Translations under genes and position numbers: made by a program
Notes under the pieces: generated by a model
Databases searched by the model: none
The model's input: the letters and a program-made list of their open reading frames with translations, nothing else
Told to the model about the DNA's origin: nothing
In this document: piece after piece, positions 25,769-44,809 of the stretch
Layout of the letters: each line of letters begins with the position of its first letter
How positions within the stretch are numbered: position 1 is the stretch's first letter
NCBI RefSeq assembly: GCF_000214355.1
Contig: NC_015577.1
Location: 3,401,389 to 3,465,388, forward strand
Direction of reading: 5' to 3'
DNA length: 64,000 nt
Source: Leadbettera azotonutricia ZAS-9
GTDB lineage: Bacteria; Spirochaetota; Spirochaetia; Treponematales; Breznakiellaceae

Positions 25769-26680
25769 ATGAAGAAAAAATATTCAGCTGCTTTAGACCG
25801 ATCTCCGCCCTGGGCGCGCAGGGTAACGCATGTGCTTTTTGCCTTTGTCTGTGTTGCCTGCCTCTTCCCTATATTATTGGTATTTGCCATAAGCATTTCC
25901 GATGAAGCGACTATTGCGCAGCATGGATACGAAATTATCCCCCGCATGCTGAGCTCGCGTTCCTATGAATACGTGCTGTCTGATTTTCAGCAGATTATGC
26001 GGGGATACATGGTGTCCATAACCATCACGGTTATAGGGACAGTTCTGGGGACCCTTATTACTGCCATGATCGCCTATCCCCTTTCGCGGACCGATTTCCC
26101 TTTCCGCAGGCATTTTACATTTTTTGTGGCCTTTACCATGCTCTTTAACGGAGGGCTGGTTCCCTGGTACCTGGTGTATGTAAAAATGCTGGGGGCCAAG
26201 AACACAATCATTCCCCTTATCATGCCCCTTCTCATAAATGGTTTTAATGTGATAATTCTGCGCACCTTCATTTCGGCAAACATCCATCCTGCGATAATTG
26301 AATCTGCCATCATTGACGGCGCAGGGGAGCTGCAAATATTTTTTAAAATGGTGCTTCCCCTGTCGGTTACGGGCCTTGCGGCCGTTGCCCTTCTTGTGAG
26401 CCTTAATTACTGGAACGACTGGTACAATGCGCTGCTCTTCATCGACACAAAGAAATTATTCCCCCTGCAATTTTTGATGTACCGGGTGAATATATCGATT
26501 CAAGTGCTTAACACTTCAAGTTTCATTCCTGACGCGGCGGCGAATGCACGGACACGCCTGCCCAACGAAACCGCCCGCATGGCCATGAGCATACTCGGCA
26601 TAGGCCCCATTGTCCTGGCATATCCGTTTCTGCAGAAGTACTTTGTGCGGGGTTTGACCCTGGGTTCAGTGAAGGGCTAA
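25769..26680 (+). CDS. CUT1-type ABC sugar permease, YtcP/LplC family
   Basis: 303 residues, six membrane segments. The EAA loop is IESAIIDGAGELQIFFKMVLPLS. FFVAFTMLFNGGLVPWYLVYVKMLG and LNYWNDWYNALLFI are typical of the YtcP/LplC subgroup, and the C-terminus FVRGLTLGSVKG is conserved in it. AAAAGGAAAAACC precedes the ATG. It forms the membrane channel with the LplB-type subunit eleven bases upstream. Confidence 0.9.
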   Translation: MKKKYSAALDRSPPWARRVTHVLFAFVCVACLFPILLVFAISISDEATIAQHGYEIIPRMLSSRSYEYVLSDFQQIMRGYMVSITITVIGTVLGTLITAMIAYPLSRTDFPFRRHFTFFVAFTMLFNGGLVPWYLVYVKMLGAKNTIIPLIMPLLINGFNVIILRTFISANIHPAIIESAIIDGAGELQIFFKMVLPLSVTGLAAVALLVSLNYWNDWYNALLFIDTKKLFPLQFLMYRVNISIQVLNTSSFIPDAAANARTRLPNETARMAMSILGIGPIVLAYPFLQKYFVRGLTLGSVKG

Positions 26681-28316: not shown

Positions 28317-29558
28317 ATGAGCAAGAATGAAAAAGATCGCACCATCCTTAGAGAACTCGCAGCAAAAGTGGCGGAAATTGCAGCCCTTCCCGTGCAGGAG
28401 GAAAAGCGCAAACTTTGGCGCAAACTCAACAGCCTTAAGCCTGAGCGGCCCATGGTGACCATAGACCAGGTGTGCTGGAGCGAAATGAACATCGATGATA
28501 AGCTAACCTTACGTTGCGAGGACAAGGAATGCCGCGCTTACGAACAGGCCCTGCGGCGCACACTCCTCCAGTGGGAATACTTCCCTATGGACATGGTGGT
28601 GGAGCCTTTTATCAAAGTGAATAAGGCAGTGCACAATACCGCCTTCGGCATGACTGTGGAAGAACACACCCTTGCAACCTTTGAATCAAACGAGGTACTG
28701 AGCCACAAATTCGAAAATCAGTTTAACACTATTGATGACGTTATGGAAAAAATAAAAATGCCTGTTATTACCCATGACGTTGCCGAAACAAAACGCCGCA
28801 TGGAGTTCGCCTCCTCCATCTTTGACGGCGTCATACCTCTGCGTGAGGAAGGATACGATCCCTACATCTCCATTTGGGATCCCATAGCCACGTGGATGAG
28901 CGTCGAAGGCGCCCTTTACGGCCTTGTAGACAAGCCTGAAATGATGCATGCCATGTCCAAGCGTATTGCTGACGGCTATATGATCATGCTGGATCAGCTT
29001 GAGGAACAGGGTGTACTCTGCCACAGCCAGGCTTTAATTCACTGTACCGGAGCATTCACCGATGATCTTCCGGCCCCGGACTTTAATCCTGCAAAACCCC
29101 GTGCAAAGGATATCTGGATGTTTGGTCTGGCCCAGATGTTTGCCACCGTATCGCCGGCGATGTTCGAAGAATACGAAATCGACTACATGATGCCTATCTT
29201 CAAACGCTTCGGTCTGGTGTACTACGGTTGCTGCGATCCTCTGGACGGCAAAATGAAGGAAGTGAAAAAGATCCCCAATGTCCGCAAAATCTCTATGAGT
29301 CCCTGGGCAAAAAAAGAGAGGGGCGCTGAAGAAATCGGCAAGGACTTTGTCTTCTCCAACAAGCCCAATCCCGCATTTATTGCGGTAACATCCTTCGATG
29401 GAGATCATGTCAGAAAAGATCTTGAAACTACCAGAGAAATTTGCAAACGTAATGGCTGCCCTCTGGAATTCATCTTTAAGGACATCAGTACGGTCCAGAA
29501 CGAACCCATGAGGCTCAAGCAATGGGCCGACATAGCAATGGAAGTTGCCTCAAGATGA
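28317..29558 (+). CDS. URO-D-fold protein 2 (long form)
   Basis: 413 residues. An N-terminal helical extension of about 45 residues (TILRELAAKVAEIAALPVQEE) precedes PERPMVTIDQVCW. The barrel shows DPIATWMSVEGALYGLVDKPEMM, MMPIFKRFGLVYYGCCDPLDGKM and a C-terminal EICKRNGCPLEFIFKDIST. Where methyltransferase relatives have His-x-Cys, this protein has YYGCCD, so the metal site differs. I place it in the URO-D superfamily from fold pattern and neighbours, with unknown activity. The next gene overlaps it by four bases (ATGA). Confidence 0.65.
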   Translation: MSKNEKDRTILRELAAKVAEIAALPVQEEKRKLWRKLNSLKPERPMVTIDQVCWSEMNIDDKLTLRCEDKECRAYEQALRRTLLQWEYFPMDMVVEPFIKVNKAVHNTAFGMTVEEHTLATFESNEVLSHKFENQFNTIDDVMEKIKMPVITHDVAETKRRMEFASSIFDGVIPLREEGYDPYISIWDPIATWMSVEGALYGLVDKPEMMHAMSKRIADGYMIMLDQLEEQGVLCHSQALIHCTGAFTDDLPAPDFNPAKPRAKDIWMFGLAQMFATVSPAMFEEYEIDYMMPIFKRFGLVYYGCCDPLDGKMKEVKKIPNVRKISMSPWAKKERGAEEIGKDFVFSNKPNPAFIAVTSFDGDHVRKDLETTREICKRNGCPLEFIFKDISTVQNEPMRLKQWADIAMEVASR

Positions 29559-30517
29559 GCAATGCGGATTTACTCGTCAAGGCCATGACCTACCAGAACC
29601 CCGAAACTATCCCGGTGAGCATTGGCACGCTCCCGGCCCTCTGGCGCAAGCATCCCGGGGAGATGAAAGAAATCACCGCCCGCTATCCCCAGTTTTTTGG
29701 GGATATAAGCGAACAGTATAATTACGATACCTATACCCCCGCATCCTATCATGAAGGCAGCTTTGCCGATGAGTGGGGCTGCGTGTGGAGCAATATCCAG
29801 GAAGGCCAGGAATCCATAGTCACCGGCCATCCCGTAAAAACCCGCGAAGATATCCGCAGTTTGAAAATTCCCGATGACCGCACCGGGAGGCTGCCCCACG
29901 GCTTTATGTATCTGCGCCTTCTCGATCTCCGTGGTTTTGAAGAGGCCATGTTTGACTTTGCCGATGAAGCTCCTGAACTGCAGATCCTCATCGATAAGGT
30001 GCTGGAGTACAATATGATCCAGGTGGATGTTGCCATCGGAAAAAATTCAGGCCCTGTCCAGTATTTCGGTGACGACCTGGGTATGCAGAAAGGCCTGGCC
30101 ATAGGCCGCGATAAATGGGTCAAATACATGAAGCCCTGTTTTACCAAACTCTATAAAAAAGTCCACGATGCAGGAAAGCTTGTCTATATGCACACCGACG
30201 GCTGTATCTGGGAAATAATGCCTGACCTCAAAGAAGCAGGGGTAAACATGGTAAACCCCCAGTACCGGGCCAACGGCCTCGACAACCTTGTCAGGGTTTG
30301 CAAGGGCAAGATCCCCATCAACCTGGATCTGGATCGCCAGTTCCTCCCTTTTGCGACGCCTTCTTCCATCGAAGATCATGTCCGCGAATGTATAGAAGCC
30401 CTCTACCTGCCCTCTGGCGGCCTGGGCATCAGCCTGGAACTTGGCCAGGATGTAAGCCCCGAAATCATCGAGGCATCCCTTGCGGCCCTGGAGAAATACC
30501 GGCATTACAAGGGGTAA
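29555..30517 (+). CDS. URO-D-fold protein 3
   Basis: 320 residues from ATG 29555, which overlaps the stop of the gene before it. URO-D features include GPVQYFGDDLGMQKGLAIGRDKWVKYMKPCF (read in two parts) and KLVYMHTDGCIWEIMPDLKEAGVNMVNP. The metal-site position reads His-Thr-Asp-Gly-Cys. The C-terminal GGLGISLELGQDVSPEIIEA matches the end of the family barrel. It is likely made in fixed ratio with URO-D protein 2. Substrate and reaction unknown. Confidence 0.7.
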   Translation: MSNADLLVKAMTYQNPETIPVSIGTLPALWRKHPGEMKEITARYPQFFGDISEQYNYDTYTPASYHEGSFADEWGCVWSNIQEGQESIVTGHPVKTREDIRSLKIPDDRTGRLPHGFMYLRLLDLRGFEEAMFDFADEAPELQILIDKVLEYNMIQVDVAIGKNSGPVQYFGDDLGMQKGLAIGRDKWVKYMKPCFTKLYKKVHDAGKLVYMHTDGCIWEIMPDLKEAGVNMVNPQYRANGLDNLVRVCKGKIPINLDLDRQFLPFATPSSIEDHVRECIEALYLPSGGLGISLELGQDVSPEIIEASLAALEKYRHYKG

Positions 30518-30579
30518 ATTTTTAGATTTTAGGAATTCAGTGTCTAAGAATTTACTGTAAGAATTTATTGGAGAACAAT

Positions 30580-31599
30580 ATGACATCAAAAGAATTAGTT
30601 ATCAAAACACTGGAATTTAAAAATAAATCGGGCCGTGCCCCCAGGCAGCTCTGGTCTTTACCCTGGGCAGGGAACCATTACCCCGAAGAACTCGCCGCGA
30701 TAAACCGGGACTTCCCCGGGGATTTTGAGGGCTGCAATGTTACCTACAAAGAAAGGGCTATAGGCAGGGGAGATCAGTACGAAGTGGGAGAATTCACCGA
30801 TGATTGGGGTTCTCGTTTTATCAATGTTCAGAAAGGCGTCCACGGACAGGTAAAAGAACCCATAGTCCCTGAAGCAGATGAAAACTGGGATGATTTGAGC
30901 AAGGTCCACTTCCCCACAGAATGGCTCAGTTTTGATATTGAAGAGGCAAACCGCCTTTGCAAAGGCAACGATAAATTTGTCATAGCAGGCTGCTGTCCCC
31001 GGCCTTTTGAGCAGCTCCAGTTTATCAGAACCTCTGAACTGCTCTTTATTGACCTCGCCTTAAAACCTGCGGGTTTTTTAAAATTCATCAAAAAAATGCA
31101 TCAATTCTACTGCGAACTTCTTGAAAAATGGGCCAAGACCGACGTGGATGCCCTCAACATGATGGACGACTGGGGTACTCAGCGGGGCCTCCTCATTCAT
31201 CCTGATACCTGGGTAGAAATCTTTAAGCCCTTGTACAAAGACTATATCGACATAGCCCACAGGGCGGGCAAGAAAATGTTCATGCACTCAGACGGCCATA
31301 CCCTGGCTATTTATCCCCACCTCATTGAACTGGGCCTGGACGCATTTAATTCGCAGATTTTCTGCATGGGTGTTGAAAATCTTGCGCCTTTCAAGGGTAA
31401 AATAACCTTCTGGGGCGAAGTTGACCGCCAGCACCTTTTGCCTGAAGGAACTACCAAAGAAATACAGGATGCCATCAAGAAAGTTCACGATACACTCTGG
31501 CAGGACGGCGGCTGCATAGCCCAGTGCGAATTCGGCGTCGGTGCAAAACCCGAAAATGTACGGCAGGTATACGCAAGCTGGGACGAGCTTACAGGCTAG
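30580..31599 (+). CDS. URO-D-fold protein 4
   Basis: 339 residues from ATG 30580, with TTGGAG seven bases before. The pattern is close to protein 3: ALNMMDDWGTQRGLLIHPDTWVEIFKPLYKDY and KKMFMHSDGHTLAIYPHLIELGLDAFNSQ. The metal-site position reads His-Ser-Asp-Gly-His. CEFGVGAKPENVRQVYASWDEL closes the protein. It ends the run begun by the regulator and importer. Its end overlaps by four bases a small leftward frame resembling a Uma2 C-terminus. Confidence 0.7.
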   Translation: MTSKELVIKTLEFKNKSGRAPRQLWSLPWAGNHYPEELAAINRDFPGDFEGCNVTYKERAIGRGDQYEVGEFTDDWGSRFINVQKGVHGQVKEPIVPEADENWDDLSKVHFPTEWLSFDIEEANRLCKGNDKFVIAGCCPRPFEQLQFIRTSELLFIDLALKPAGFLKFIKKMHQFYCELLEKWAKTDVDALNMMDDWGTQRGLLIHPDTWVEIFKPLYKDYIDIAHRAGKKMFMHSDGHTLAIYPHLIELGLDAFNSQIFCMGVENLAPFKGKITFWGEVDRQHLLPEGTTKEIQDAIKKVHDTLWQDGGCIAQCEFGVGAKPENVRQVYASWDELTG

Positions 31600-31874
31600 G
31601 AATTTACCTGCTCCGCAAACACCTCGCTTAAATTAACAGAGAGACCTTCGATGGCAGCGGAAGGAAGGACAGCTCCGGCTTCATAGGTTTTCCAGATGCT
31701 TGCATCTTCCTGAGAGATACTTACCTGCACGGTTTTGTCGTCAGGCGATAGGGTCCAAATAATATAAGGGTCTCCATATAATTCGTCAATGTTTTGAAAA
31801 TAGTTTTGACAAAGCCCTGAAAATTCTTTATAGTAATTTGAAGTGCAACCTTTGCATAATCCCGGAGGAATCAA
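31596..31874 (-). pseudogene. Possible remnant of a Uma2-family (DUF820) endonuclease-like gene
   Basis: 92 codons on the minus strand in the gap between URO-D protein 4 and the first mannosidase. The C-terminal half (YIIWTLSPDDKTVQVSI, then AGAVLPSAAIEGLSVNLSEVFAE) follows the closing pattern of Uma2 proteins, where a DPE-TVEVY strand precedes L-S-LPGL-L-L-E-F. The catalytic N-terminal half is missing, and its place is taken by the promoter and start of the mannosidase. A decayed, transferred copy is the simplest reading. It could also be chance. Confidence 0.35.
31806..31834 (+). promoter_or_regulatory. Sigma-70 promoter of the mannosidase operon
   Basis: TTGACA (31806-31811), 17-base spacer, TATAGT (31829-31834). 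Predicted start near 31841, followed by GGAGGA before ATG 31877. It would let the mannosidases and isomerase be expressed separately from the importer genes. Confidence 0.65.
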
Positions 31875-31876
31875 AT

Positions 31877-34285
31877 ATGAAAGAAAAAATCCATCTCATC
31901 GGTAACGCACATATAGACATATTCTGGCTGTGGCGATGGGAAGAAGGCTTCCAGGAGATTCGGGCAACCTTTGCCTCAGCCCTTGACCGCATAAAAGAGC
32001 ATGACCAGTTCATTTTTACCTCAGCCTGCGCGTATTACTACAGCCTGGTTGAAAGTACCGATCCCGGGCTCTTTAGGCGCATACAGGAAGCGGTTAAAGC
32101 CGGACGCTGGCGCATAGTGGGCGGCTGGTGGCTTCAGCCCGATTGCAATGCCCCTGCAGGCGAGTCCTTCGCCCGTCAGGGTCTTTATGCCCAGCGCTAC
32201 TTTAAGGAAAAATTCGGCGTTACCGCAACGCTGGGTTATAATGTGGATTCATTTGGCCATAACGGGAATCTTCCCCAGATCCTTAAAAAATCAGGCATGG
32301 ATTCCTATGTGTTTATGCGGCCTATGGCCCATGAAAAAACCTTGCCTGCGGTTCTCTTCAACTGGGAAGGCGTGGACGGAACCAAAGTGCTGGCCCACAG
32401 GCTTATGATCAGCTATAACTCGGAAAGCAATTGGGGGGAAAAGCTGGTAAAAAAAATTGCCCAGCATACCGAGGCAGCCGCAAAGGAAGGCAAGCCCCTG
32501 ATGTGTTTCTACGGAGTAGGAAACCACGGCGGCGGGCCCACCATAGAGAATCTTAAAACCATCGATGCTCTTAAGAACGAAAGCCCTGAAATTGTTTACA
32601 GCGATCCCCAAAAATATTTTGAAGAAGCCTCCAAATTGCCCGGTATTCCTACAGTCAAGGATGAACTTCAGTATCACGCCATAGGCTGCTATTCCTCCCT
32701 CAGCAAGGTCAAGCGCGCCAATAACGCCACAGAACAGGCTCTGCTCTTTGCTGAGAAAATGCTTGCTGTTACAGGAGGCGCCGATATTTCAGAAAACAGC
32801 GCAGCTCTTACAGCGGCCTGGAAAAAAGTTTTGACCAACCAGTTCCACGATTCCCTCGGCGGCTGTTCCATTCCCGAAGCCTATCCCAAAATTTTGGCGG
32901 CTTATGCCTGGGGCCAGGAAACAGTGAACCACATGACAGCCATACTTTTCCAGCGTCTTACTTCCAGGATTGCGACTTTCAAAGACGGTTCCACAGTTAT
33001 AGTCTGGAACCCCCATCCCTGGGAAGTAAAACAAACCATTGAAGTTATAGGTCTTGCCGATGCAGTTTATGACAGCAAGGGAAATGCCCTTCCCTTTGAA
33101 ATTGTGCCCACTGCGGCGATTACTTCCGGTTTCTTTTCCCAGGCTTTGCGCTTCAATATAAATTTACCGCCTTTGGGGTATACAGCCTATAAACTGGATA
33201 AGCTCAGCAATAGCTGGGATACCAGGGCCTTTTTAAGCCTCCAATATACCCGTACTGCTTCAAACCATATACGTTCGGGCGATTGGGATGCGGAAATTGA
33301 CAGGGAAACCGGGTTCATCACTTCCCTCATCAACACTAAAACCGGCACCCAATTCCTGGGAGGGGAAGGTATAGGCCCTGTCATCATTGATGATGAATCC
33401 GATACCTGGACTCACGCCCTTTCTTCCTATAAAGGCGCAAAACGAAAGATGGCCCTGGAATCTTATACCTTGGTAAGCCAGGGATCTGTGACCACCGAGT
33501 ACGAAATTGTCTATAAGCTCTTTACCAGTGCAGTAATACTGCGCGTCATCCTTAATGGCGAGCTGGGAACTCTCGATATTAAAACAAGGGTCGTCTGGAA
33601 CGAACACCACAGGCTTCTCAAATTAAGAATTGGATCGGTTTTTAGCAGTAAAGCATTTAATTCAGAGATACCCTACGGGGCTATCGAAAGGGCAGCAGAT
33701 GGACGGGAATGGCCCCTGCAGCGCTGGGCGATCCTATCGTCGCAGGCAAATGGGCCCGGCCTTGCTGTCATCAACGATGGTATTTATTCAGGCAGTGCCG
33801 AAGAGGGCAGCCTGGATCTCACCCTTTTAAGGAGCCCGGTTTATGCCCACCATGAGACCCAGCACCCCAGGCCCGACATACAGCACCGCTATGTGGATCA
33901 GGGTGAGCAGGAATTCCTTGTCCAGCTCAGGCCCTATGCCACCCAAGCTGTTCAGGAAAATATTGCCAGCCATGCCCTTGAGCTGAACCAGCCTCCTGTT
34001 TATGTCATCGAATCCATTCACTCAGGCGAACTTCCCCTGGAGCATAGCTTCTGCAGCATAAAGGAAGGTTCATCGGCCATAATTTCCACTATCAAACGTT
34101 CAGAAGATGGAAATGCGTGGATAGTCAGGGCCGTTGAAACAGGCGGCAAAAAAAACGAGGCCTCCGTTGATTTCACATGGCTCGGCTTAAGATGCAATTT
34201 AAGCTTCAGCCCTTATGAGATCAAAACCCTAAAAATTGCGGACAAGGACAATTCAATTTCTGAAACCAATTTACTGGAATTTTAG
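31877..34285 (+). CDS. Alpha-mannosidase, glycoside hydrolase family 38 (short form)
   Basis: 802 residues from ATG 31877, with GGAGGA seven bases before. GH38 zinc and catalytic residues are visible: GNAHIDIFWLWRWEEG (His and Asp ligands), GYNVDSFGHNGNLPQILKKSG (nucleophile Asp), and TNQFHDSLGGCSIPEAY (third His). Beta-rich C-terminal domains follow from about residue 380. There is no signal peptide, so it is cytoplasmic. It would release mannose from imported alpha-mannosides, or a related sugar since family specificity varies. It is the first gene of the mannosidase-mannosidase-isomerase unit. Confidence 0.9.
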   Translation: MKEKIHLIGNAHIDIFWLWRWEEGFQEIRATFASALDRIKEHDQFIFTSACAYYYSLVESTDPGLFRRIQEAVKAGRWRIVGGWWLQPDCNAPAGESFARQGLYAQRYFKEKFGVTATLGYNVDSFGHNGNLPQILKKSGMDSYVFMRPMAHEKTLPAVLFNWEGVDGTKVLAHRLMISYNSESNWGEKLVKKIAQHTEAAAKEGKPLMCFYGVGNHGGGPTIENLKTIDALKNESPEIVYSDPQKYFEEASKLPGIPTVKDELQYHAIGCYSSLSKVKRANNATEQALLFAEKMLAVTGGADISENSAALTAAWKKVLTNQFHDSLGGCSIPEAYPKILAAYAWGQETVNHMTAILFQRLTSRIATFKDGSTVIVWNPHPWEVKQTIEVIGLADAVYDSKGNALPFEIVPTAAITSGFFSQALRFNINLPPLGYTAYKLDKLSNSWDTRAFLSLQYTRTASNHIRSGDWDAEIDRETGFITSLINTKTGTQFLGGEGIGPVIIDDESDTWTHALSSYKGAKRKMALESYTLVSQGSVTTEYEIVYKLFTSAVILRVILNGELGTLDIKTRVVWNEHHRLLKLRIGSVFSSKAFNSEIPYGAIERAADGREWPLQRWAILSSQANGPGLAVINDGIYSGSAEEGSLDLTLLRSPVYAHHETQHPRPDIQHRYVDQGEQEFLVQLRPYATQAVQENIASHALELNQPPVYVIESIHSGELPLEHSFCSIKEGSSAIISTIKRSEDGNAWIVRAVETGGKKNEASVDFTWLGLRCNLSFSPYEIKTLKIADKDNSISETNLLEF

Positions 34286-34309: not shown

Positions 34310-37300
34310 ATGTTCAAAGATTTCATTGTCGAAAAAATAGGCCGGGAAGTCCGTTTCCTGGAACAGCTCCGGTATCAGAATGTTATGCCGGTAAAAGAAC
34401 TGCTGGCCACAGAAGAGCCAAAGGATTTTGCCTATCCCGGCTTTATAAAACCCGGAAAGGCTTCAAAGCAAATGAACATTGGCGAATTCTGGAGCGGCCG
34501 GGACCGGTATCTCTGGATACATACGGAATTTGAGGCGCCTAAAGAATGGAAAGGCAAAGATGTACTTGGCTATTTTGATTTCGGCCTCACCGGGGGCGGG
34601 CATAATTCAGGCTTTGAATCCCTGCTTTTCATAAACGGCGAGCCTTACCAGGGGGTAGATTCAAACCATAAAGAAGCTTTCTTTAAGCCCCAGACAGGAA
34701 AGAAAATGGCTTTCGACTTCAGGCTCTGGAGCGGCCTTGAGGGGGGCGGCCCAAAAAAGATAATGGATCACCAGATTAAAGCTGCCTTCTTCTGTACCCT
34801 GGAACCCTCCGTGGACGAACTTTATTACCTTTTAAAAAACATGATCCTGACAGTAAAAGAATTAAAATCTGAAGACCCTGCCCAAACGAAACTTCAAAAT
34901 ATACTCGTAGAAGGTTATAAATTCCTTGACTTTACAAATCCCGGTTCATCGCCCTTTATTGCCTCTGTGGAAAAAGCCCTTGAGTATTACCGCAAAAACC
35001 TGAAAACCGCAGGCAGACAAAAGGACGTTTCGGTTTCGTTTATCGGTCACACGCATATAGACCTTTCATGGCTCTGGCGCTACAAGCACACCAGGGAGAA
35101 AGGGGAAAGGTCGTTTTCCACAGTATTGCGCTTAATGGAAAGATACCCCGAATATATTTTCCTCCAGACCCAGGCGCAGATCTACGATTCCATCAAGGAA
35201 GATCACCCTGATCTTTACAAGGCTATCGCAAAACGGGTGGTGGAAGGCCGCTGGGAAGCTTCCGGTTCCATGTGGGTGGAAGCGGACTGCAACATTCCTT
35301 CGGGCGAATCCCTGGTACGCCAAATACTCTATGGCAAGGGTTTCTTTAAAAAAGAGTTCGGCGTGGAAAATACCTTCCTCTGGCTCCCCGATGTGTTCGG
35401 CTATAACTGGGCCCTGCCCCAGATACTCAAAAAATCCGGCATCGATACTTTTATTACTACCAAGATCAGCTGGAGCGAAATCAATCGTATGCCCCACGAC
35501 ACTTTTAAATGGACGGGCATGGACGGCAGCACAGTGATGACCCACTTTATCACCACCCCGGACACAGGGAACGCCATCTACTACACCTACAATGGCATGA
35601 TACTCCCCAGTACCGTCAAAGGCATTTGGGAAACCTACCGTGATAAGGCCATGAACCAGGATCTGCTTTTCTCTTACGGTTTCGGCGACGGTGGGGGCGG
35701 CGTTACCCGGGACATGCTCGAAAATATCAGGGCCGTTTCAAAACTCCCGGGCCTTCCGGCTGCAAAAACAGAGCGGGTGGATACCTACCTTAAACGGCTC
35801 CACAAGAAAATTTCCGAACCTGCAAACGCACGCCTCCTCCACAACTGGGACAGGGAACTCTACCTTGAATACCATAGGGGGACATACACTTCCCAGGCTT
35901 TCACCAAAAAAATGAACCGCAAGCTTGAACTCGTCTATAGAGACGCGGAAATACTGCAATCCCTGGCAGCCCTTAAAACCAAAAAATGGGATGATGCATC
36001 CCAGGCACTGCTCCACGAGGGCTGGAAGCTTATATTAAAAGCACAGTTCCACGATATAATCCCCGGTTCTTCCATTGCCGAAGTCTACGAAGACACACAG
36101 AAAGATCATGCCACTGCCATGGAAAAAGGCAATACCGCCTTCTCAAGTGCTCTAAGCATACTCACAAACAAAGACAAAGAAACTCTCACAGTAATTAACA
36201 CTGCCGGCTGGAAACGCGGCGGCCTTGTAAAGCTCCCTGCTGAATTTGCCTTGGGAAAAGGGAAAGTTCTTGCAGGCCCCAAAGGCGTGCTCCCGGTTCA
36301 GGTGTCCTCCATTGACGGAGAAAAGGCAGCTTACACCTATGTGCCGGGTATCAATCCCCTGGAAAGCGCATCCCTCAAAATTGAAAATGCGTCGCCTGAT
36401 CTGCCGGTGGTCAAATTCGGCAGGAATGCAAAATTCATAATCCGCAAAAACGGCGTGGATACTCCCTTCTATAAAATCAAGTGGAACGCCAAAGGCCAGC
36501 TCACTTCAATATGGGACAAGCAGGCCAAGCGCGAAACCCTTTCCGGTCCGGGGAACGAACTCCAAATGTTTGAAGACAGGCCCCGCTCGAGCGATGCATG
36601 GGAAATCGAAGCCACCATCGATCTTAAGCGCGAAAGTGTGGACAAGCTTGTCTCGGTCAAGATTGAAGAATCAGGCCCCCTATTTGCACGGGTACGTTTT
36701 GTCTGGGTTTACAACAAATCCAAAATCACCCAGGACTTGATTGTCTATACCGCCCATAAGAGGATAGACTTCAAGACCGAAGTAGATTGGCAAGAAAGGA
36801 GCAAACTCCTCAAGGCCAGCTTCCCTGTGGACATACGTTCGGTAAACGCCCGTTACGAAATCCAGTACGGCAGCCTTGAACGCAATGCCACCAGAAGCAC
36901 ACCCTGGGATGAAGCCCAGTTCGAGGTGGTAGGGCACCAATGGGCCGACTACAGCGAGAAGGGCTTTGGTGTTGCCCTTATGAACGATTCAAAATACGGC
37001 TATGACATTAAAGAAGGCATCATGCGCCTTTCTCTCCTTAAATCAGCGGAACACCCCGACACCCAGGCTGACAGGGGTTTGCAGCAATTCACCTACTCGC
37101 TCTATGTGCATACAGATCCATGGTACCAGTCGGATCTCATACCACTGGCATGGGACCTCAATGCGCCCCTCGTTGCTGCCCAGGGAAAGAGCAGCATTGG
37201 AGACTTAATCAGCATTAGCGGCAATGCTGCACTGGACGCAATCAAAAAGAGCGAAAACGGCAAGGACATCATCATAAGGCTCCACGAGATGCACGGCGGG

Positions 37301-37453
37301 CGATCCAAACTCAACATTGAATTTAATGTTCCCGTTTCCGGCTGGGCCGAGGCGAACCTCATGGAAGAACCCATTGGCGCTTTTAAAACTTCTGCTGCGA
37401 TTAAGAGAGAGCTCCATCCTTTCGAAATCGTAAGCTATAGGATAAAATTATGA
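34310..37453 (+). CDS. Alpha-mannosidase, glycoside hydrolase family 38 (long form)
   Basis: 1047 residues. An N-terminal domain of about 235 residues (jelly-roll type, RDRYLWIHTEFEAPKEWKG) precedes the GH38 core: GHTHIDLSWLWRYKHTREKG, FLWLPDVFGYNWALPQILKKSG (nucleophile Asp) and KAQFHDIIPGSSIAEVYED. This architecture is that of bacterial and vacuolar Ams1-type mannosidases, different from the shorter enzyme just upstream, so the two probably cut different linkages. It is cytoplasmic by lack of signal. AAGGAAGGA precedes the ATG, and its TGA overlaps the ATG of the isomerase gene. Confidence 0.92.
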   Translation: MFKDFIVEKIGREVRFLEQLRYQNVMPVKELLATEEPKDFAYPGFIKPGKASKQMNIGEFWSGRDRYLWIHTEFEAPKEWKGKDVLGYFDFGLTGGGHNSGFESLLFINGEPYQGVDSNHKEAFFKPQTGKKMAFDFRLWSGLEGGGPKKIMDHQIKAAFFCTLEPSVDELYYLLKNMILTVKELKSEDPAQTKLQNILVEGYKFLDFTNPGSSPFIASVEKALEYYRKNLKTAGRQKDVSVSFIGHTHIDLSWLWRYKHTREKGERSFSTVLRLMERYPEYIFLQTQAQIYDSIKEDHPDLYKAIAKRVVEGRWEASGSMWVEADCNIPSGESLVRQILYGKGFFKKEFGVENTFLWLPDVFGYNWALPQILKKSGIDTFITTKISWSEINRMPHDTFKWTGMDGSTVMTHFITTPDTGNAIYYTYNGMILPSTVKGIWETYRDKAMNQDLLFSYGFGDGGGGVTRDMLENIRAVSKLPGLPAAKTERVDTYLKRLHKKISEPANARLLHNWDRELYLEYHRGTYTSQAFTKKMNRKLELVYRDAEILQSLAALKTKKWDDASQALLHEGWKLILKAQFHDIIPGSSIAEVYEDTQKDHATAMEKGNTAFSSALSILTNKDKETLTVINTAGWKRGGLVKLPAEFALGKGKVLAGPKGVLPVQVSSIDGEKAAYTYVPGINPLESASLKIENASPDLPVVKFGRNAKFIIRKNGVDTPFYKIKWNAKGQLTSIWDKQAKRETLSGPGNELQMFEDRPRSSDAWEIEATIDLKRESVDKLVSVKIEESGPLFARVRFVWVYNKSKITQDLIVYTAHKRIDFKTEVDWQERSKLLKASFPVDIRSVNARYEIQYGSLERNATRSTPWDEAQFEVVGHQWADYSEKGFGVALMNDSKYGYDIKEGIMRLSLLKSAEHPDTQADRGLQQFTYSLYVHTDPWYQSDLIPLAWDLNAPLVAAQGKSSIGDLISISGNAALDAIKKSENGKDIIIRLHEMHGGRSKLNIEFNVPVSGWAEANLMEEPIGAFKTSAAIKRELHPFEIVSYRIKL

Positions 37454-38091
37454 GCGACCCCAATCATGTCATTTTCAGGAAACTATTGGAACGGTACCCC
37501 GATCTTGAAGCCTGCGCGGCGGAGATATTCGCAGCAGGGGAACTCTTAAAAAATGCTGCCGCAGGGGGAAATAAAATCCTCCTCTGCGGCAACGGAGGCA
37601 GCGCGGCGGATGCGGATCATATAACAGGGGAACTTTTAAAATCCTTCTGCAAAAAGCGGCCCATTGATAAAAAATTTAAGGAAAGGCTTAAAGATCTGGA
37701 TCAAGATGCGGGCGCCGATTTAGCGGAAAAACTGCAGGGCGGCATCCCTGCAATATCCCTCACCTTTCACAATGCCCTGTCAACAGCCTTCGGGAACGAT
37801 GTGGACCCCAACATGGCATTTGCCCAGCAAGCCTTTGTGTATGCCAAGCCGGGCGATGTTTTCTGGGGCATCTCCACTTCGGGCAATGCAAAGAATGTAT
37901 ACAATGCGGCCCTGGTTGCAAAAGCCAAAGGATTAAAAGTGCTTGGCATGACCGCAAAGGGCGGGGGCAAATTAAAACAGATCAGCGACATCTGCATTGC
38001 GGTCCCTCGCACAGAAACCTACGAAGCCCAGGAACTGCATCTCCCGGTATACCACGCCCTCTGTCTCTATGTGGAAGACGCCCTCTGGTAA
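37450..38091 (+). CDS. SIS-domain sugar-phosphate isomerase, GmhA-like
   Basis: 213 residues. LLCGNGGSAADADHITGELLKSF is the phosphosugar-binding loop of phosphoheptose isomerases, and DVFWGISTSGNAKNVYNAALVAKAKG is the second SIS motif. The C-terminal ELHLPVYHALCLYVED holds the His pair of the GmhA metal site. An insert of about 30 charged residues (KKRPIDKKFKERLKD) separates the two motifs and is longer than in standard GmhA. It starts inside the stop of the long mannosidase. In this context it may isomerise a phosphorylated mannose derivative; heptose synthesis is the textbook role but no other heptose gene is here. Confidence 0.82.
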   Translation: MSDPNHVIFRKLLERYPDLEACAAEIFAAGELLKNAAAGGNKILLCGNGGSAADADHITGELLKSFCKKRPIDKKFKERLKDLDQDAGADLAEKLQGGIPAISLTFHNALSTAFGNDVDPNMAFAQQAFVYAKPGDVFWGISTSGNAKNVYNAALVAKAKGLKVLGMTAKGGGKLKQISDICIAVPRTETYEAQELHLPVYHALCLYVEDALW

Positions 38092-38107: not shown

Positions 38108-39025
38108 TCACTTTGCGGACAGGCCGTTTACCGCTGCGCAAATTGCGGCGGTATCCCCCAATGATTCCCCCAATTCCGCAGGCAGCACTTTGCAGACCCC
38201 TGCGGCAAGGGGAAGGGCTTCTTCTTTAATCGCTTTTTCCACCCTGCTGCGGAAAAGGGATTCGCTGCGCGCAAAGATACTGCCTATAACGATTCTTTCA
38301 GGGTTTATAATATCAATAAAAAGGGCAAGCCCCTTGCCCAGCATGAGGGCGCTCTCTTCGATTATTGCAAGGGCCATGGCATCGCCCTTTTCGGCTCTTT
38401 TGCATACTTCGCCGCCTGAAATTCTTTCACCGTAACGGTCAAAATAAGCTTCCGAAATCCCGCCCCCCGAACACCAGCCTTCCAGGGAACCTTTTTTGCC
38501 GTAGCCCAAGGGTCCGCCTTCAGTCATCCTGATGTGGCCCACTTCCCCTGCAAGGCCATTTGCCCCCCGGTAGAGCCTTCCGTCCAGGATGAGGCCCGCG
38601 CCAAGGCCGGTGCCAAAGGTGAGGAAGATCATGTTTTTGCAACCCCTGCCTGCGCCATAGTACCATTCCGCAAGAGCGCAGGCATTGGCATCATTTTCTA
38701 TGAATACTGGAAGGCTGAATTCATCTTTCAGCATTTCTATGATATGCACATCATCCCAGCCGGGGAGGTTTGGGGGGGACTGAATAATCCCCTTGTCGCT
38801 ATCCAAAGGGCCGCCGCAGGAAATACCCATAGCGGCAATATTCTCTTTTCCATTTTGCGATATAAAAGTCTCTACTTCAGTAAATATATTTTTTAGGGCC
38901 TGTTTCAAATCCCTGTCGGTGGGAAAAGCCTTCTTGCCTAATATCCGCCCCACAGAATTGCCTGAGGATATCGCGGTTTTAGTGCCGCCTATGTCAATGC
39001 CAATATATACTTTATTCTCATTCAT
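38108..39025 (-). CDS. ROK-family sugar kinase
   Basis: 305 residues. The ATP-binding motif is YIGIDIGGTKTAI at the start. FIENDANACALAEWYYGAGRG carries the catalytic Asp, and FLTFGTGLGAGLILDGRLYRGANGLAGEVGHIRM, read in parts, is the ROK signature. The usual CxCGxxGC zinc loop is reduced to GSLEGWCSGGG, so zinc is probably absent. It phosphorylates a hexose such as glucose, mannose or an N-acyl sugar; sequence alone does not choose. It converges on the isomerase gene 16 bases away and overlaps the end of the DHS-like gene by eight bases. Confidence 0.87.
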   Translation of the reverse strand: MNENKVYIGIDIGGTKTAISSGNSVGRILGKKAFPTDRDLKQALKNIFTEVETFISQNGKENIAAMGISCGGPLDSDKGIIQSPPNLPGWDDVHIIEMLKDEFSLPVFIENDANACALAEWYYGAGRGCKNMIFLTFGTGLGAGLILDGRLYRGANGLAGEVGHIRMTEGGPLGYGKKGSLEGWCSGGGISEAYFDRYGERISGGEVCKRAEKGDAMALAIIEESALMLGKGLALFIDIINPERIVIGSIFARSESLFRSRVEKAIKEEALPLAAGVCKVLPAELGESLGDTAAICAAVNGLSAK

Positions 39026-40169
39026 TCCGGTTCTCCATTTGGCATTCCAATGACTGGCTCAGGAGGGCAAAGAAAACCCTGTTGTCTGCCGAGGTATAAT
39101 CCACCCTGCAGCCCATGCGGCTAAAGGTCTTCATGAACCTGAGGTAATACGCGGGATCATCCATAGGAGGTTCCCCCCCTGACCAATCCCAGGAAGCTTC
39201 CTGGAGATCGACCACATGGATGCCGCAGTCCTTTATCCCCTTCCCCCCATTGGCATTCCTTGCCATGGAAAGGGCTTTTTCAAAAATCATTGGGGACATG
39301 ACAGCCGAACCTACAGACAAGTACACACCGCCGTCCAGGCTTTCGATGCTTGAAACATATTCAAGAAAATCCCGCTCCGCAGTCCTGCCCACCGCAGCGC
39401 CGCAATTGGCTTTATGGGTGTAAATTATATCATGGCCAAACATGGGATGGCAGGTAAAAGGCCTCCCGCATTGCGTAGCAGCCTCAAGAAGGCTGTATTC
39501 TTTATAAAGATGGTCAACGGAAAGAAAACCAGGCCGCAGATTGAGCAACTCCATAAGTCCCAGGAGATCCAGAGCCGCAGCAGCCTTATTAGTAGTATAA
39601 GTACTAACATCAACACTATTACGCTTAATAGCAGAATTCACCGTTTCAAAAAGCCCCTCCCGGGAAGGAATATCGAGGCCGTCTTTATGTATCATTGCCC
39701 CCACAGAAGCGCCATAACCCAGACCTTCATAAGCGCCAAGCGCCAATGCCAGGTTGATATAAAGGCCTGTTTCTTCCCAGGTGCCAAATTTGCCTTTAAG
39801 GACATTCTCATGGACATCCTCGCTGCTCTTTCCCTGGAAGGCAAATTCCCAATCATGAATTACCGCAGCCCCATTGGCAGCCAGATGGGTAAACCAGCCT
39901 TTTTTAAGCAAACTGCCGAGAAGCTGCCCCAGACCGTTCTTTATGGAATGGGCGCCGAATGCGCAAACAACCGAAGCGCCCCTTTTCTTTGCCTTCGCAA
40001 TTTCCGCAGCAATACTGTCAACCCGCAGTTTAAGGGACGCGGGTATTTCTTTTGTTTTTAAATAAGCCTCAGGCTTAATGCATGCATCGGGTATGGAGAC
40101 TTTGCTAAGCCTTTCCCTGAGGGGGAAATAACTCATCCTGGCCCTGTCAAACATAAGCCTATTCGGCAT
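39018..40169 (-). CDS. Deoxyhypusine-synthase-like protein, function unknown
   Basis: 383 residues from ATG 40169; a TTG at 40193 and an ATG at 40154 are alternatives. VVCAFGAHSIKNGLGQLL, THLAANGAAVIHDWEFAFQGKSSEDV and LGYGASVGAMIH are the Rossmann-like signatures of bacterial deoxyhypusine-synthase relatives. The active-site Lys motif of true deoxyhypusine synthase (near SWGK) is not visible at the C-terminus, where DYTSADNRVFFALLSQ stands. Bacteria lack eIF5A, so another substrate is expected. It lies between the DUF4340/Gld run and the ROK kinase, overlapping both neighbours by about ten bases. Confidence 0.6.
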   Translation of the reverse strand: MPNRLMFDRARMSYFPLRERLSKVSIPDACIKPEAYLKTKEIPASLKLRVDSIAAEIAKAKKRGASVVCAFGAHSIKNGLGQLLGSLLKKGWFTHLAANGAAVIHDWEFAFQGKSSEDVHENVLKGKFGTWEETGLYINLALALGAYEGLGYGASVGAMIHKDGLDIPSREGLFETVNSAIKRNSVDVSTYTTNKAAAALDLLGLMELLNLRPGFLSVDHLYKEYSLLEAATQCGRPFTCHPMFGHDIIYTHKANCGAAVGRTAERDFLEYVSSIESLDGGVYLSVGSAVMSPMIFEKALSMARNANGGKGIKDCGIHVVDLQEASWDWSGGEPPMDDPAYYLRFMKTFSRMGCRVDYTSADNRVFFALLSQSLECQMENRNE

Positions 40170-41535
40170 AAGCCATTTTGTCCGCAGTTTCAAAAATGTT
40201 TCTCACCTGAGATCGGGAGACAACAAATTCTGTATTGCCATCCTGGGTCAGGGCATAATAATCACGATTATAGGGCCTAAGCGTGACAGACACCCTGGCA
40301 TTCTGCGGCTCTTTAAGGTTGAATTCTATGGTAACAGGCGAACCGGCGGCAGGCTCGCCAAGGGGCCCCGGATATTCAGCATCCACCAAAAGGCCAATGA
40401 CTGCCTGATAATAAGTCCGGAATTCCTTGTCAAGGGTTTTCTTTCCATTAAGCGAGAATTCGGCTTCATCCTTGGTGCCTTTTATATCTGCACGCAATGT
40501 ACGGCCTTCGCCGGAAACAGTAAAATAATCAACTATATCAATATTGAAAATAAGCGAAAACTTGTCGGCCAAATTAAACGCAGTAGTGCCGACTACAGCA
40601 TCCAGGTTAGCAACAGTGAATACCCCGTTTTTATCCGGCAGTTTGGCAAAGAGTTCCCCTTCGCCGCTCCTGCCAAAGAGCAGATCAAAAACACCGTTTC
40701 CGGCCTCGATATGAAGTTTCCCGGGTTTATCAAGGCCATAGGGCGCCAAAGAAGCGGGGTTGTCTTCCACAAATTGGTTTATTTGCAGAGCCTGCAGAGG
40801 TTCAAGAATTTCGGAAAACTTCTGGCTGTCTACGCCCCGCCTTGCTTTATAAGGGGAAATGAGCATAAATTGCGAAAAGTTTGACACTAAATATACGTCC
40901 TCCGGCCTGGGCACAATATCAATAAGCGTTCTGCCGTTATCAAGGGTAAAACGGATCACAGTGGCGGGATCAAAACCTGTATAGATACTCCTGTCCCGTA
41001 TGCTGTCCAGGCTAAAGAGGAGGCTGTCGGCAGAATAGGAAGAGACCGTATACACTTTGGGATCGCCCGAAACCATAGTATAATAAGCAGAACGCCCGGG
41101 GTTGAGGTTCCCAAAAAAGAGTTCTGCCCTTTTCCCTTCGGAATCGGCAACAATGGCATGCCCCTGAGGTTCGGCAAGCCCGTACTGGGAAAGATCCCCC
41201 GGCGCATCATCCACTACGCTTTCGGCCCAGACGCTTCCTGCATACCAGAGCTTGCCGCTTACTGCCGATTGATCAATCCGTATGCCCGTGGGGGCATTTG
41301 CCAGTTCCCAATTATCGCCGTTTTTTTCCAGGGAAAAACCCGAGCTTACAAGATCGAGCTTTACGATCTTGCCGGAATCAAATTCTGTCAGCCTGGGAGT
41401 ATCCCGCGCAGGGGCCGATGCATAGGGAGAGGCTTTGGGGTGGGCCTTGCTCCATGCTTGAGCCGCGAAATATCCGCCGCTTAAAAGAACCAAAGCCGCA
41501 AGGACAATTATGAGTGTTACTGTCTTCCGTTTCAT
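40159..41535 (-). CDS. DUF4340-domain envelope protein linked to a Gld-type ABC system
   Basis: 458 residues with one N-terminal membrane anchor (TLIIVLAALVLLSGGYFAA) and the rest outside the cytoplasm. LDLVSSGFSLEKNGDNWELA and the repeated strand pattern VIRFTLDNGRTLIDIV and LHIEAGNGVFDLLFG match DUF4340, which normally sits beside GldG-like proteins. The start is eight bases after gldG. It probably forms the periplasmic part of the same transporter. The cargo is unknown. Confidence 0.75.
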   Translation of the reverse strand: MKRKTVTLIIVLAALVLLSGGYFAAQAWSKAHPKASPYASAPARDTPRLTEFDSGKIVKLDLVSSGFSLEKNGDNWELANAPTGIRIDQSAVSGKLWYAGSVWAESVVDDAPGDLSQYGLAEPQGHAIVADSEGKRAELFFGNLNPGRSAYYTMVSGDPKVYTVSSYSADSLLFSLDSIRDRSIYTGFDPATVIRFTLDNGRTLIDIVPRPEDVYLVSNFSQFMLISPYKARRGVDSQKFSEILEPLQALQINQFVEDNPASLAPYGLDKPGKLHIEAGNGVFDLLFGRSGEGELFAKLPDKNGVFTVANLDAVVGTTAFNLADKFSLIFNIDIVDYFTVSGEGRTLRADIKGTKDEAEFSLNGKKTLDKEFRTYYQAVIGLLVDAEYPGPLGEPAAGSPVTIEFNLKEPQNARVSVTLRPYNRDYYALTQDGNTEFVVSRSQVRNIFETADKMAYAE

Positions 41536-41543
41536 AGTTCCGC

Positions 41544-42995
41544 CTAAAGGTGGCGACGCTTCAGCCAGGTGACAAGCCCGGTTATGAAGAAAGCCAGAGG
41601 GATAAGTAGCACAAACACTACGCTAAAAATTATCATCTGAAGGCCATTGAGGCGCAGGGGCAGGAGGTAGAGGCTCTTGGATCGTACTGCGAGCGCCTCG
41701 GGCCTGTCTTCAAGCCATGTAAGACTGTTCATAAAGAAATCCAGATTGCCGGGGATCTGCTGATAGGAGCTGATAGGTTCCAGGAGGGAGGCCGCAGCAA
41801 TAACTACAATGCGGGCCTGCTTTTCATTCCCCTGTATGTACTGGGGATCCATAACAGTCATGGCGATGGTTATGGGCCCCTTTATGTCCGAACCCACCCT
41901 GATATTTGCGGTCTCTTCAAGATCAGTCCTGAGCCAGGAATTCTGGGAAGACGAGAGGAGGGGGCTTAAGCCCACAGAACGCCTTTTGGCAGGAAGCTCG
42001 GAAATGCCCATGGGGAAGGGCAGCACTATAAGCGAAGATCTTTGCGACAGGGGCTTGGTAATATCATGCTCGGCCATTTCGGGGATCATGACATATGGCG
42101 CGCCTGCTGTATGGGCGGTATCATTTTCCTGCACCACCCCATAGTCAAGGCGAAGCCCATAGCTTGAGAGGGTTTCGTTCAGGATGGGAAGCTCCCTTAT
42201 CCTGTAATCTGCCAGTATTAAAAGCCTTCCGCCGTTTTCAAGGAAGGCAAGAATCTTGTCGGCTTCGCCCCGGGAAATATCTGCCCTGGGTGCATTGAGG
42301 ATGAGCCCTGAAGCGTCAGGCGGTATGCTGGACTGGACGAGGTTAATGGACTTGAGGGAGAAATTTTCCCGCTCCACAGTTTCCTTCATGCCAAGCTGGG
42401 AAAGGGCCCTTTCCTCATGGCCGGTGATTTCATAAAGCACAGGAGTTTCGCCGGTCCCGGCAAAAAGAAGGGCCGAGGTAAAGCGCCTTTCCACGGCTAC
42501 GCCGGTAATGGATTGGCGGCCGGTCTGGTTATTGGTGCTGACATCGTACATATCCTGGGGCGGGATGACCCTGAAGCCCTTGGCGCCTTCCACAATGACA
42601 CTGCCCCGGGCAATACCCTGCTTGTCCTTGTCGTACTTCACCAGGAAGCCGGGGTTCTTGTCGGGGTCCATCACCTGGAAGTGAATGTTTTTATTTCGCC
42701 CAATGTAGAGATCCACCACCTCGGTAACTTCGGAATTGTCCTCGCCGGGCCGCCAGAGGCCATAAATGTTCACCGGGGAATTTACCTTGTCCAAAACCTG
42801 GATAGACTGCTCTGAAAGGGAGAAAAGCTTGCTGTAGGTAAGATCAATCTGGGGGGTAAACTGGGCTATGATGAGGTTAACCAGAATGAGCCCGGCTATT
42901 ACTGCCAATGTGATGAGGGCCGCATAACCCCCGTACTTAACCTGTTTGGTGCGGAAAGAATCCCGCAGGTATTTAAAACCTTTAATTTCTTTCAT
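41544..42995 (-). CDS. GldG-like ABC-system periplasmic protein
   Basis: 483 residues. There is an N-terminal membrane helix (YAALITLAVIAGLILVNLIIA), a large external domain, and a C-terminal helix (MIIFSVVFVLLIPLAFFITGLV) before a basic tail. FTPQIDLTYSKLFSLSEQSIQVLDKVNSPVNIYGLW is the GldG opening, read in two runs, and LENGGRLLILADYRIRELP the later conserved segment. It belongs with the ATPase and permease upstream. In Bacteroidetes the relatives serve gliding; outside that phylum they occur in non-gliders and the role is unknown. Confidence 0.8.
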   Translation of the reverse strand: MKEIKGFKYLRDSFRTKQVKYGGYAALITLAVIAGLILVNLIIAQFTPQIDLTYSKLFSLSEQSIQVLDKVNSPVNIYGLWRPGEDNSEVTEVVDLYIGRNKNIHFQVMDPDKNPGFLVKYDKDKQGIARGSVIVEGAKGFRVIPPQDMYDVSTNNQTGRQSITGVAVERRFTSALLFAGTGETPVLYEITGHEERALSQLGMKETVERENFSLKSINLVQSSIPPDASGLILNAPRADISRGEADKILAFLENGGRLLILADYRIRELPILNETLSSYGLRLDYGVVQENDTAHTAGAPYVMIPEMAEHDITKPLSQRSSLIVLPFPMGISELPAKRRSVGLSPLLSSSQNSWLRTDLEETANIRVGSDIKGPITIAMTVMDPQYIQGNEKQARIVVIAAASLLEPISSYQQIPGNLDFFMNSLTWLEDRPEALAVRSKSLYLLPLRLNGLQMIIFSVVFVLLIPLAFFITGLVTWLKRRHL

Positions 42996-43004
42996 TATAT
43001 CCCC

Positions 43005-43868
43005 CTAGTTCCACCGGCGCTTTTCAATGAGCCTTACTGTCAGGAAAAGGAAAAGTCCGCAGAAGGTAATGTAATAAATGAGGGAATCGATTTTCAAAAG
43101 CCCCATGGTAAAATTCTGATAGCGCCTGTTAAGGGAGAACCACCCCAAAAATTTCTGGAGGAACCCGGTATACACAGCGCGCTTAAAGAACCAGAAGCCC
43201 CCTATGGCCAGGCCGAATACTATGACCGATGCCAGGGTAATAAACCAGTTCCGGGTATTCAAAAAGATGAAAGACGCCGCGAGGGCAGCCAGTACTCCCG
43301 CAGAAATAAGACCTGCCTTGAGATCCGCAGGAACCATCTGCGCGATAGAGTCGATTAGCAGTATTACTAACAATGCGAAGAATGTTACCAGCGCCGCGGT
43401 AAGCTGATTCTCCGTAGAAGCGGAAATGAGCACGCCTATGGAAATATACCCTGCCCCCAGGAAAAGAAAGCCGATATAGCTTCCAATAACCTCGGCAGTC
43501 TGCAGATCGCCAAAGATTGCGATCACCACCGCGTAGAGCAGAGTTACTGCCATGGTCATGGCATAGAGGACCAGGGCTGCGAGGAATTTCCCTAACACGA
43601 TTTCAGGAATGGAGACAGGGCTCGTGAGGAGCAGCTGATCCGTCTTCTGACGTTTTTCTTCGGAAAAAAGCCTCATGGTTAAAAGAGGGATCGCAAAAAG
43701 GTAGATAAAAAGCAGATTCCCCAGGAAGCTTGAAAACTGGGAACTCTGGGAAAAGATATTGCCAAAGGCAAAAAAGAGGCCGGTTATCAGCAGAAAAAGG
43801 CCCATATAAATAAAGCCTATGGGGGTTACAAAATAAGCTTTTACTTCGCGTTTAAAAATGGAGATCAT
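43005..43868 (-). CDS. ABC-2 type permease, GldF-like
   Basis: 287 residues with six or seven membrane segments. MISIFKREVKAYFVTPIGFIYMG at the start, RLFSEEKRQKTDQLLLTSPVSIPEIVLGKF in the first cytoplasmic loop (read in two parts) and FWFFKRAVYTGFLQKFLGWFSL near the end are characteristic of the GldF/NosY-type permeases. It overlaps the ATPase gene by four bases, so the two are made together as one exporter. Confidence 0.87.
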   Translation of the reverse strand: MISIFKREVKAYFVTPIGFIYMGLFLLITGLFFAFGNIFSQSSQFSSFLGNLLFIYLFAIPLLTMRLFSEEKRQKTDQLLLTSPVSIPEIVLGKFLAALVLYAMTMAVTLLYAVVIAIFGDLQTAEVIGSYIGFLFLGAGYISIGVLISASTENQLTAALVTFFALLVILLIDSIAQMVPADLKAGLISAGVLAALAASFIFLNTRNWFITLASVIVFGLAIGGFWFFKRAVYTGFLQKFLGWFSLNRRYQNFTMGLLKIDSLIYYITFCGLFLFLTVRLIEKRRWN

Positions 43869-44809
43869 TCTTTCGCCTCCCTGGTGGTAAGATTGAGGAA
43901 TATCTCTTCGAGGCTTAAATCCTGGGACCGCATCAAAAGTATGGGTATATTGGCTGTGCTCAAAGCATGGAAGATGTCCCGCCTTATGTCGGCTTCTTCA
44001 CCGGCTTCAGCGACGACCTCGCAGGTCCCGCTCTCCTGGGATTCTTTCCATTCCAAATTCCGTATCTGGGGGATTGTCCCCAGGGCGCTTGAGACAGCAT
44101 CCTGGCTGCCATCGAGGCGGAGGAGTATGTGGCTCCCGCCGAGTATGCGTTTTGCCAGGTTTTCGGGGGTATCGTCCGCCACAATGGCGCCCCTGTTGAT
44201 GATGAGCACCCGCTTGCACACAGCGCTCACCTCGGGAAGTATGTGGGAAGAAAGGATGATGGTGTGATCCTTCCCCAATTCAATTATGAGATCCCTGATT
44301 TCGAGGATCTGCTTGGGATCGAGGCCCGCCGTGGGTTCGTCCAGGATCAGCACCTCAGGGTCGCCTATCATGGCCTGGGCCAGGCCCACCCGCTGCTTGT
44401 AGCCCTTGGACAGGTTCTTTATGAGGCGGCCCGAAACATCGGAAATTCCCGTAATCCCCATCACCCTGTCCATGCGGCCCTTTTTCTCTTTTGCCGGGAT
44501 TTTTTTGATGTCCCCCGCGAAGGAAAGGTATTCTTTTACTGTCATGTCCGGGTAAAGAGGGGGGTTTTCGGGCAAATAGCCGATTTTCTTCTTTATTTCG
44601 GTGGGATACTCCAGAATATCCATCCCGTCCACCTTGACTGCGCCTTCGGTGGACGAAAGATACCCAGTGAGTATGTTCATGGTGGTTGATTTCCCGGCCC
44701 CGTTGGGCCCAAGGAAGCCTACGATCTCGCCTTTCTCGATCTTAAAACTCGCGTGGTCCACTGCCGTATGGGGGCCATAACGCCTAACCAGGTTCGTAAC
44801 CTCAATCAC
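43865..44809 (-). CDS. ABC transporter ATP-binding protein, GldA-like
   Basis: 314 residues from GTG 44809, with AGGAGG five bases upstream. Walker A is GPNGAGKST, the signature LSKGYKQRVGLAQA and Walker B VLILDEPTAGLD, with a switch His in ILSSHILPE. A C-terminal extension of about 90 residues is normal for the GldA/NatA group. It heads the run GldA, GldF, GldG, DUF4340, then the DHS-like and ROK genes, all on the minus strand with spacings below ten bases or overlaps. Confidence 0.93.
   Translation of the reverse strand: MIEVTNLVRRYGPHTAVDHASFKIEKGEIVGFLGPNGAGKSTTMNILTGYLSSTEGAVKVDGMDILEYPTEIKKKIGYLPENPPLYPDMTVKEYLSFAGDIKKIPAKEKKGRMDRVMGITGISDVSGRLIKNLSKGYKQRVGLAQAMIGDPEVLILDEPTAGLDPKQILEIRDLIIELGKDHTIILSSHILPEVSAVCKRVLIINRGAIVADDTPENLAKRILGGSHILLRLDGSQDAVSSALGTIPQIRNLEWKESQESGTCEVVAEAGEEADIRRDIFHALSTANIPILLMRSQDLSLEEIFLNLTTREAKE

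Follow-up and report, generated by a model that had tools for sequence, protein, structure and literature searches.

The deoxyhypusine synthase (DHS) fold has been associated with reactions of amines such as spermidine and ornithine. The closest described systems for the protein analyzed here are DHS itself, the cyclodeaminase domain of ArgZ/AgrE together with the archaeal TIGR00300 proteins, and, by its neighboring genes, the ADP/GDP-heptose trio. In an excerpt of a report on Pyrococcus DHS (PMC7432094), Thr101, Ala102, Gly103 and Glu107 are among the contacts with NAD and Lys307 is the catalytic residue. An excerpt of a Geobacter sulfurreducens study (PMC5585712) gives electrode fitness values of -3.1, -3.2 and -3.7 for mutants of hldE (GSU2085), GSU2086 and gmhA (GSU2087). 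The similar impairment of the three mutants fits one pathway, without proving one. Literature searches returned no paper that we recognized as dealing with the function of the GSU2086 family.

We analyzed a window of 64,000 nucleotides from Leadbettera azotonutricia ZAS-9, in which a member of this family lies among genes for sugar utilization. The features are as follows.

39018..40169, minus strand: DHS-fold protein, GSU2086 family (NF052581), 383 aa; alternative start possible at about 40154
38108..39025, minus strand: ROK-family sugar kinase, 305 aa; PF00480, 197 bits; nearest solved structures are glucokinases and N-acetylmannosamine kinases
37450..38091, plus strand: SIS-domain isomerase, GmhA-related, convergent with the ROK gene; PF13580; TIGR00441 131 bits, below the cut-off of 209
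34310..37453, plus strand: GH38 alpha-mannosidase-like glycoside hydrolase; PF01074, 289 bits; shares 4 bases with the SIS gene
31838..34285, plus strand: second GH38 glycoside hydrolase; PF01074, 202 bits
23749..28240, plus strand: GntR plus periplasmic-binding-like regulator (sugar-type), two ABC permease genes and a solute-binding protein

The frame of the DHS-fold gene is open throughout 39018-40193 on the minus strand, with an ATG at 40169. Homologue alignments begin at residue 6-7, and translation may therefore start further in, at an ATG near 40154; with the start at 40169 the gene overlaps the upstream DUF4340 gene (40159-41535) by 11 bases. Its end shares 8 bases (39018-39025) with the start of the ROK kinase gene, an overlap that the initial annotation had correctly noticed. 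A scan of genome_contigs gave 388 candidate stretches encoding a relative, and a chance open reading frame was ruled out by this result. The best 80 of these 388 relatives are 49-69% identical to the protein, and their record titles name Spirochaetota, Bacteroidota, Planctomycetota, Verrucomicrobiota/Lentisphaerae, Hydrogenedentota and other phyla.

The protein matched NF052581 ("GSU2086 family protein") over its full length with 302.1 bits against a cut-off of 250, and both copies in the genome scored over this cut-off; the namesake GSU2086 was placed in the family by the NCBIfam name alone. PF01916 (DHS) had no match in the genome, nor was it listed for the protein by hmmscan up to E 10, and eIF5A (TIGR00037) was not found in the genome either. 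The absence of both ruled out a genuine DHS, in line with the role other than hypusine formation that had been proposed for the gene. A bacterial DHS homologue, however, is not in itself the oddity that it had been taken for, since PF01916 matched in 7 of 120 Spirochaetota genomes, 6 of them over the cut-off. The sole Pfam lead was a sub-threshold match to the ArgZ-like C-terminal domain (PF21570, 20.2 bits against 27). The TIGR00300 score, 22.7 bits, was below the cut-off of 410.8, and sequence similarity to ornithine cyclodeaminases covers about 70 residues only. Other origins were also rejected: the paralogue had no phage match, PADLOC had no match for the DHS-fold protein, the ROK kinase or the PfkB-HAD protein as defense genes, and spread by plasmid was discounted with relatives in only 2 of 72,556 records.

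The structure was predicted by AlphaFold2 from a 59-sequence alignment (pLDDT 94.2, pTM 0.92) and compared by Foldseek and VIA-align, with differences in Z of less than 1 treated as ties. VIA aligned the model with ArgZ 6juy_C (Z 18.6, rmsd 3.5, 214 residues), the LOR/SDH protein 3c2q_A (Z 17.8, rmsd 3.8, 222 residues), Pyrococcus DHS 7cmc_A (Z 17.5, rmsd 4.2, 259 residues) and human DHS 1dhs (Z 17.0, rmsd 4.0, 256 residues). AgrE/ArgZ and the archaeal and eukaryotic DHS thus rank together, with no row clearly on top. As modeled, the protein has the DHS/ornithine-cyclodeaminase fold. The label "deoxyhypusine-synthase-like" therefore holds at the level of the predicted fold, but not as an assignment to DHS. 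The initial annotation had also left room for a named, unrelated family; a named family was found in NF052581, but one that shares the DHS fold in the model.

Conserved residues were counted on 81 sequences: 74 of group A, which includes the window protein, 3 of group B and 4 of group C. Eleven rows with an in-frame stop in the extension had been removed from an initial 99, as had L085, a short copy, and six rows that duplicated other loci (L098, L099, L100, L102, L103 and L110). The motif N-G-A-x3-H-D-x-E (N99-G100-A101...H105-D106-x-E108) has its N, G, A, H, D and E in 81 of 81, and R20, H74, E117, D247, D267, K298, N305 and D321 are likewise invariant (81/81); position 77 is K or R in the family. 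Ornithine-cyclodeaminase relatives carry G-N-A-x3-H-D-[IL]-E in four cases of four, which resembles the family motif with the order of G and N swapped, and all six bacterial DHS sequences carry [AS]-T-G-A. The NAD-binding signatures that were said to remain resemble the cyclodeaminase form rather than that of DHS. In an alignment made by eye, Asn, Gly, Ala and His of the window protein stand opposite Thr101, Ala102, Gly103 and Glu107 of Pyrococcus DHS, and the apparent His in place of the NAD contact Glu107 counts against the reading favored below, an NAD-dependent phosphosugar enzyme. We also observed two Spirochaetota DHS homologues (L120 and L121) with ATGANMYHD, a form intermediate between the common DHS motif and the GSU2086-family one.

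The DHS motif SWGK/WGK has no direct counterpart in the window protein, and to this extent the reported lack of the active-site Lys motif was borne out. With R344 and K347 close to the expected place, the Lys itself may or may not have been lost. R344 is present in 74 of 74 group A and 3 of 3 group B sequences and is invariant in a 12-row alignment; all four group C sequences have a Tyr-Arg pair there, shifted by one column. K347 is invariant in groups A (74/74) and B (3/3), and is Asn in all four of group C. With the 12-, 59- and 81-row alignments, hhalign put the C-terminal segment differently or nowhere, so that the equivalent of human Lys329 was not located by sequence. The six DHS frames of this profile comparison had been chosen by [SA]WGK, and the presence of the motif in all six reflects that selection.

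The neighbors of the homologues were identified by gene calls and clustering, then by Pfam and NCBIfam, then by seeded tblastn within 6 kb of 80 named homologue loci. HAD proteins were found at 59 of these loci, PfkB at 57, SIS at 37, ROK at 30, a LacI-type regulator at 25, GlcNAc-2-epimerase-like proteins at 13 and GH38 at 6. This conserved gene module around the DHS-fold protein is the firm result, and the sugar-linked substrate proposed from a single overlap with a ROK gene gained far stronger support from these neighbors than from the overlap. Of the 80 loci, 57 have 2.5 kb or more of sequence on each side; among them PfkB was present at 46, HAD at 45 (all 45 with PfkB), SIS at 29 and ROK at 26. 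A point against the favored reading is that 11 of these 57 loci, a Treponema relative (L011) among them, have neither PfkB nor HAD nearby. PfkB and HAD are frequently fused into one protein of about 630 residues, and in many cases the DHS-fold gene comes directly after the fused gene. At one locus (L014) the best NCBIfam match of the PfkB part was TIGR02198, the kinase domain of HldE, with 121 bits against a cut-off of 345; for the SIS protein it was GmhA, with 146 bits against 209. Three of the GlcNAc-2-epimerase-like neighbors scored best against cellobiose 2-epimerase, not GlcNAc 2-epimerase. In a Pfam tally of 85 of the 149 operon-mates, transporters, GFO/IDH/MocA oxidoreductases and TIM-barrel isomerases recurred, each at most 6 times in 85.

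Two further contexts were found on plasmids. In Solidesulfovibrio, a relative lies in a nonulosonate-type cluster between an HldE-like adenylyltransferase plus kinase-domain protein and a SIS gene. On a Chloroflexota plasmid, a HAD gene and an HldE-kinase-like gene flank the relative; SIS comes after the latter, and an ABC transporter adjoins. The short group C relatives of other Spirochaetota (L093-L096 and L111-L114) had unrelated genes as neighbors, such as a PurD-like or a helicase-like one. Given these group C contexts, which weaken the favored reading, more than one role is possible for the GSU2086 family.

Within the window, no module PfkB or HAD gene was found. The matches of the genome to these two lie at C1:1443544-1444539 and 1446185-1446982. 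They belong to a paralogue operon, a second and complete copy of the module, in which a single strand carries HAD, the DHS-fold paralogue, SIS, PfkB and ROK (L110:6541-10992; C1 about 1,442,500-1,447,000). Next to this operon are a sugar ABC transporter and one gene whose translation resembles Gfo/Idh/MocA oxidoreductases. The PDB relatives of the window SIS protein are the phosphoheptose isomerases 2xbl and 2x3y. The heptose route was not found at equivalog level in the genome, where GmhA scored 131 bits against 209, the HldE kinase 76.8 against 345, and the adenylyltransferase (rfaE_dom_II) 47 against 181.5; no adenylyltransferase in the genome exceeded the rfaE_dom_II cut-off, another point against the favored reading.

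Several other features of the window were observed. Three consecutive genes at 28317-31599 precede the GH38 genes, two of them of the URO-D family, and a similar-looking gene lies at 22426-23478; these genes possibly encode methyl-transfer enzymes in a sugar locus. The URO-D-like genes are on the plus strand. The second ABC permease (25769-26680) was called from translation only. Directly upstream of the DHS-fold gene, genes for an ABC ATPase, a permease, an auxiliary protein and DUF4340 occupy 40159-44809 on the minus strand, with a similar order in L011; we take this set to resemble a gliding-type ABC operon. The ROK kinase (38108-39025) has GYGKKGS where the glucokinase 3vov has CGCGLEGC, and has apparently lost the cysteine cluster that usually forms a zinc site.

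In Spirochaetota, the GSU2086 family was found over its cut-off in 14 of 296 genomes. The module HAD (E 1e-8 or better) was found in 8 of the 296, all of them inside the 14, so that 6 of the 14 have the family without the HAD. In 7 of the 8, the HAD and the DHS-fold gene are no more than about 1.2 kb apart; in the eighth (G144) the HAD is on a separate contig. The chance of such an overlap is 2.3e-12 when genomes are treated as independent, a figure that shared ancestry weakens. The window-type SIS is common (112/296) and is thus not specific to the module.

From the fold and the genomic context, the DHS-fold protein is, on balance, probably an NAD-dependent phosphosugar enzyme of some kind. 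The single most likely reaction, though a doubtful one when taken by itself, would be a redox-neutral epimerization of a C6 or C7 sugar phosphate. We infer the NAD binding, substrate and mechanism as follows. The substrate of the enzyme would be a phosphorylated sugar, and its partners a GmhA-like SIS protein, an HldE-like PfkB, a HAD phosphatase and a ROK kinase. If the enzyme worked as DHS and ArgZ/AgrE do, a carbon of the sugar phosphate would be transiently oxidized by bound NAD+; epimerization or elimination would follow in the activated intermediate, which NADH would then reduce again, with a net redox change of zero. The basic residues R20, H74, K298, the K/R at 77 and an Arg near 344 would suit an anionic phosphosugar more than a polyamine. 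The window copy lies in a mannoside-type utilization locus (ABC transporter, two GH38, SIS and ROK), and the matching PfkB and HAD are encoded in the paralogue operon elsewhere on the chromosome.

Three other explanations were weighed. A DHS-like or homospermidine-synthase-like polyamine enzyme merely traveling with sugar genes, with K347 as the imine-forming Lys, would agree with the fold of the model, with an hhalign probability of 97.4 for the 12-row alignment against six bacterial DHS (global), and with ATGANMYHD in two of these six, which is close to the NGA...HD of the family. The 81-row alignment, however, scored only 57-59 against the same six and the 59-row one gave no usable alignment; with PF01916 unmatched, K347 replaced by Asn throughout group C, and sugar kinases, phosphatases and isomerases as neighbors, we consider this explanation very improbable. 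An ArgZ/AgrE-like cyclodeaminase or deaminase acting on an amino sugar phosphate is somewhat less remote, but still unlikely. ArgZ/AgrE are the best structural and sequence leads, both have H-D-x-E in common with the family, and GlcNAc-2-epimerase-like proteins are near at 13 of the 80 loci, but the similarity extends over about 70 residues and stays under the cut-offs (PF21570 20/27 bits, TIGR00300 23/411), and the three epimerase-like neighbors point to cellobiose 2-epimerase.

The protein could also be a non-catalytic partner of the PfkB-HAD protein that senses NAD or a sugar phosphate. Such a partner would explain why the module HAD was never found without the family in the 296 genomes while 6 of 14 have the family without the HAD, and why the DHS-fold gene often directly follows the fused kinase-phosphatase gene; the invariant polar residues are, however, typical of an active site and many members have no PfkB or HAD nearby, and we give this explanation a similarly low probability. 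We tentatively propose, as a possibility short of probable, that a DHS-superfamily enzyme moved from amines to sugar phosphates and became an NAD-dependent, redox-neutral epimerase or lyase. Spirochaetota, Bacteroidota, Planctomycetota, Verrucomicrobiota and others would have in it an unrecognized fourth member of a GmhA/HldE/HAD-like sugar-phosphate branch. The enzyme would handle manno-configured sugars from outside in some and serve surface-sugar synthesis in others, such as Geobacter. If the tie to sugar phosphates is true, the chemistry of the DHS fold would extend to carbohydrates through a widespread branch, the curated family NF052581 would gain a function, and an unrecognized sugar pathway would be indicated, for which the excerpted Geobacter study (PMC5585712) has a fitness phenotype at hand.

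Compared with DHS (PF01916), the window protein is alike in fold (Z 17.0 to 1dhs) and differs in having no Pfam match, no WGK motif, another motif in the NAD region and a genome without eIF5A. With the ArgZ/AgrE cyclodeaminase domain and the archaeal TIGR00300 proteins it shares the fold (Z 18.6) and the HD-x-E motif, but it stays below the curated cut-offs, the similarity is weak and local, and the context is sugar rather than arginine. Within NF052581, about 50 residues of the window copy (near 165-218) have no counterpart in groups B and C. The neighbor families of the module resemble the ADP/GDP-heptose trio of GmhA, HldE kinase domain and GmhB-type HAD, but they score below the equivalog cut-offs and many loci are in uptake or hydrolase contexts; to our knowledge, the known ADP/GDP-heptose route has no DHS-fold protein.
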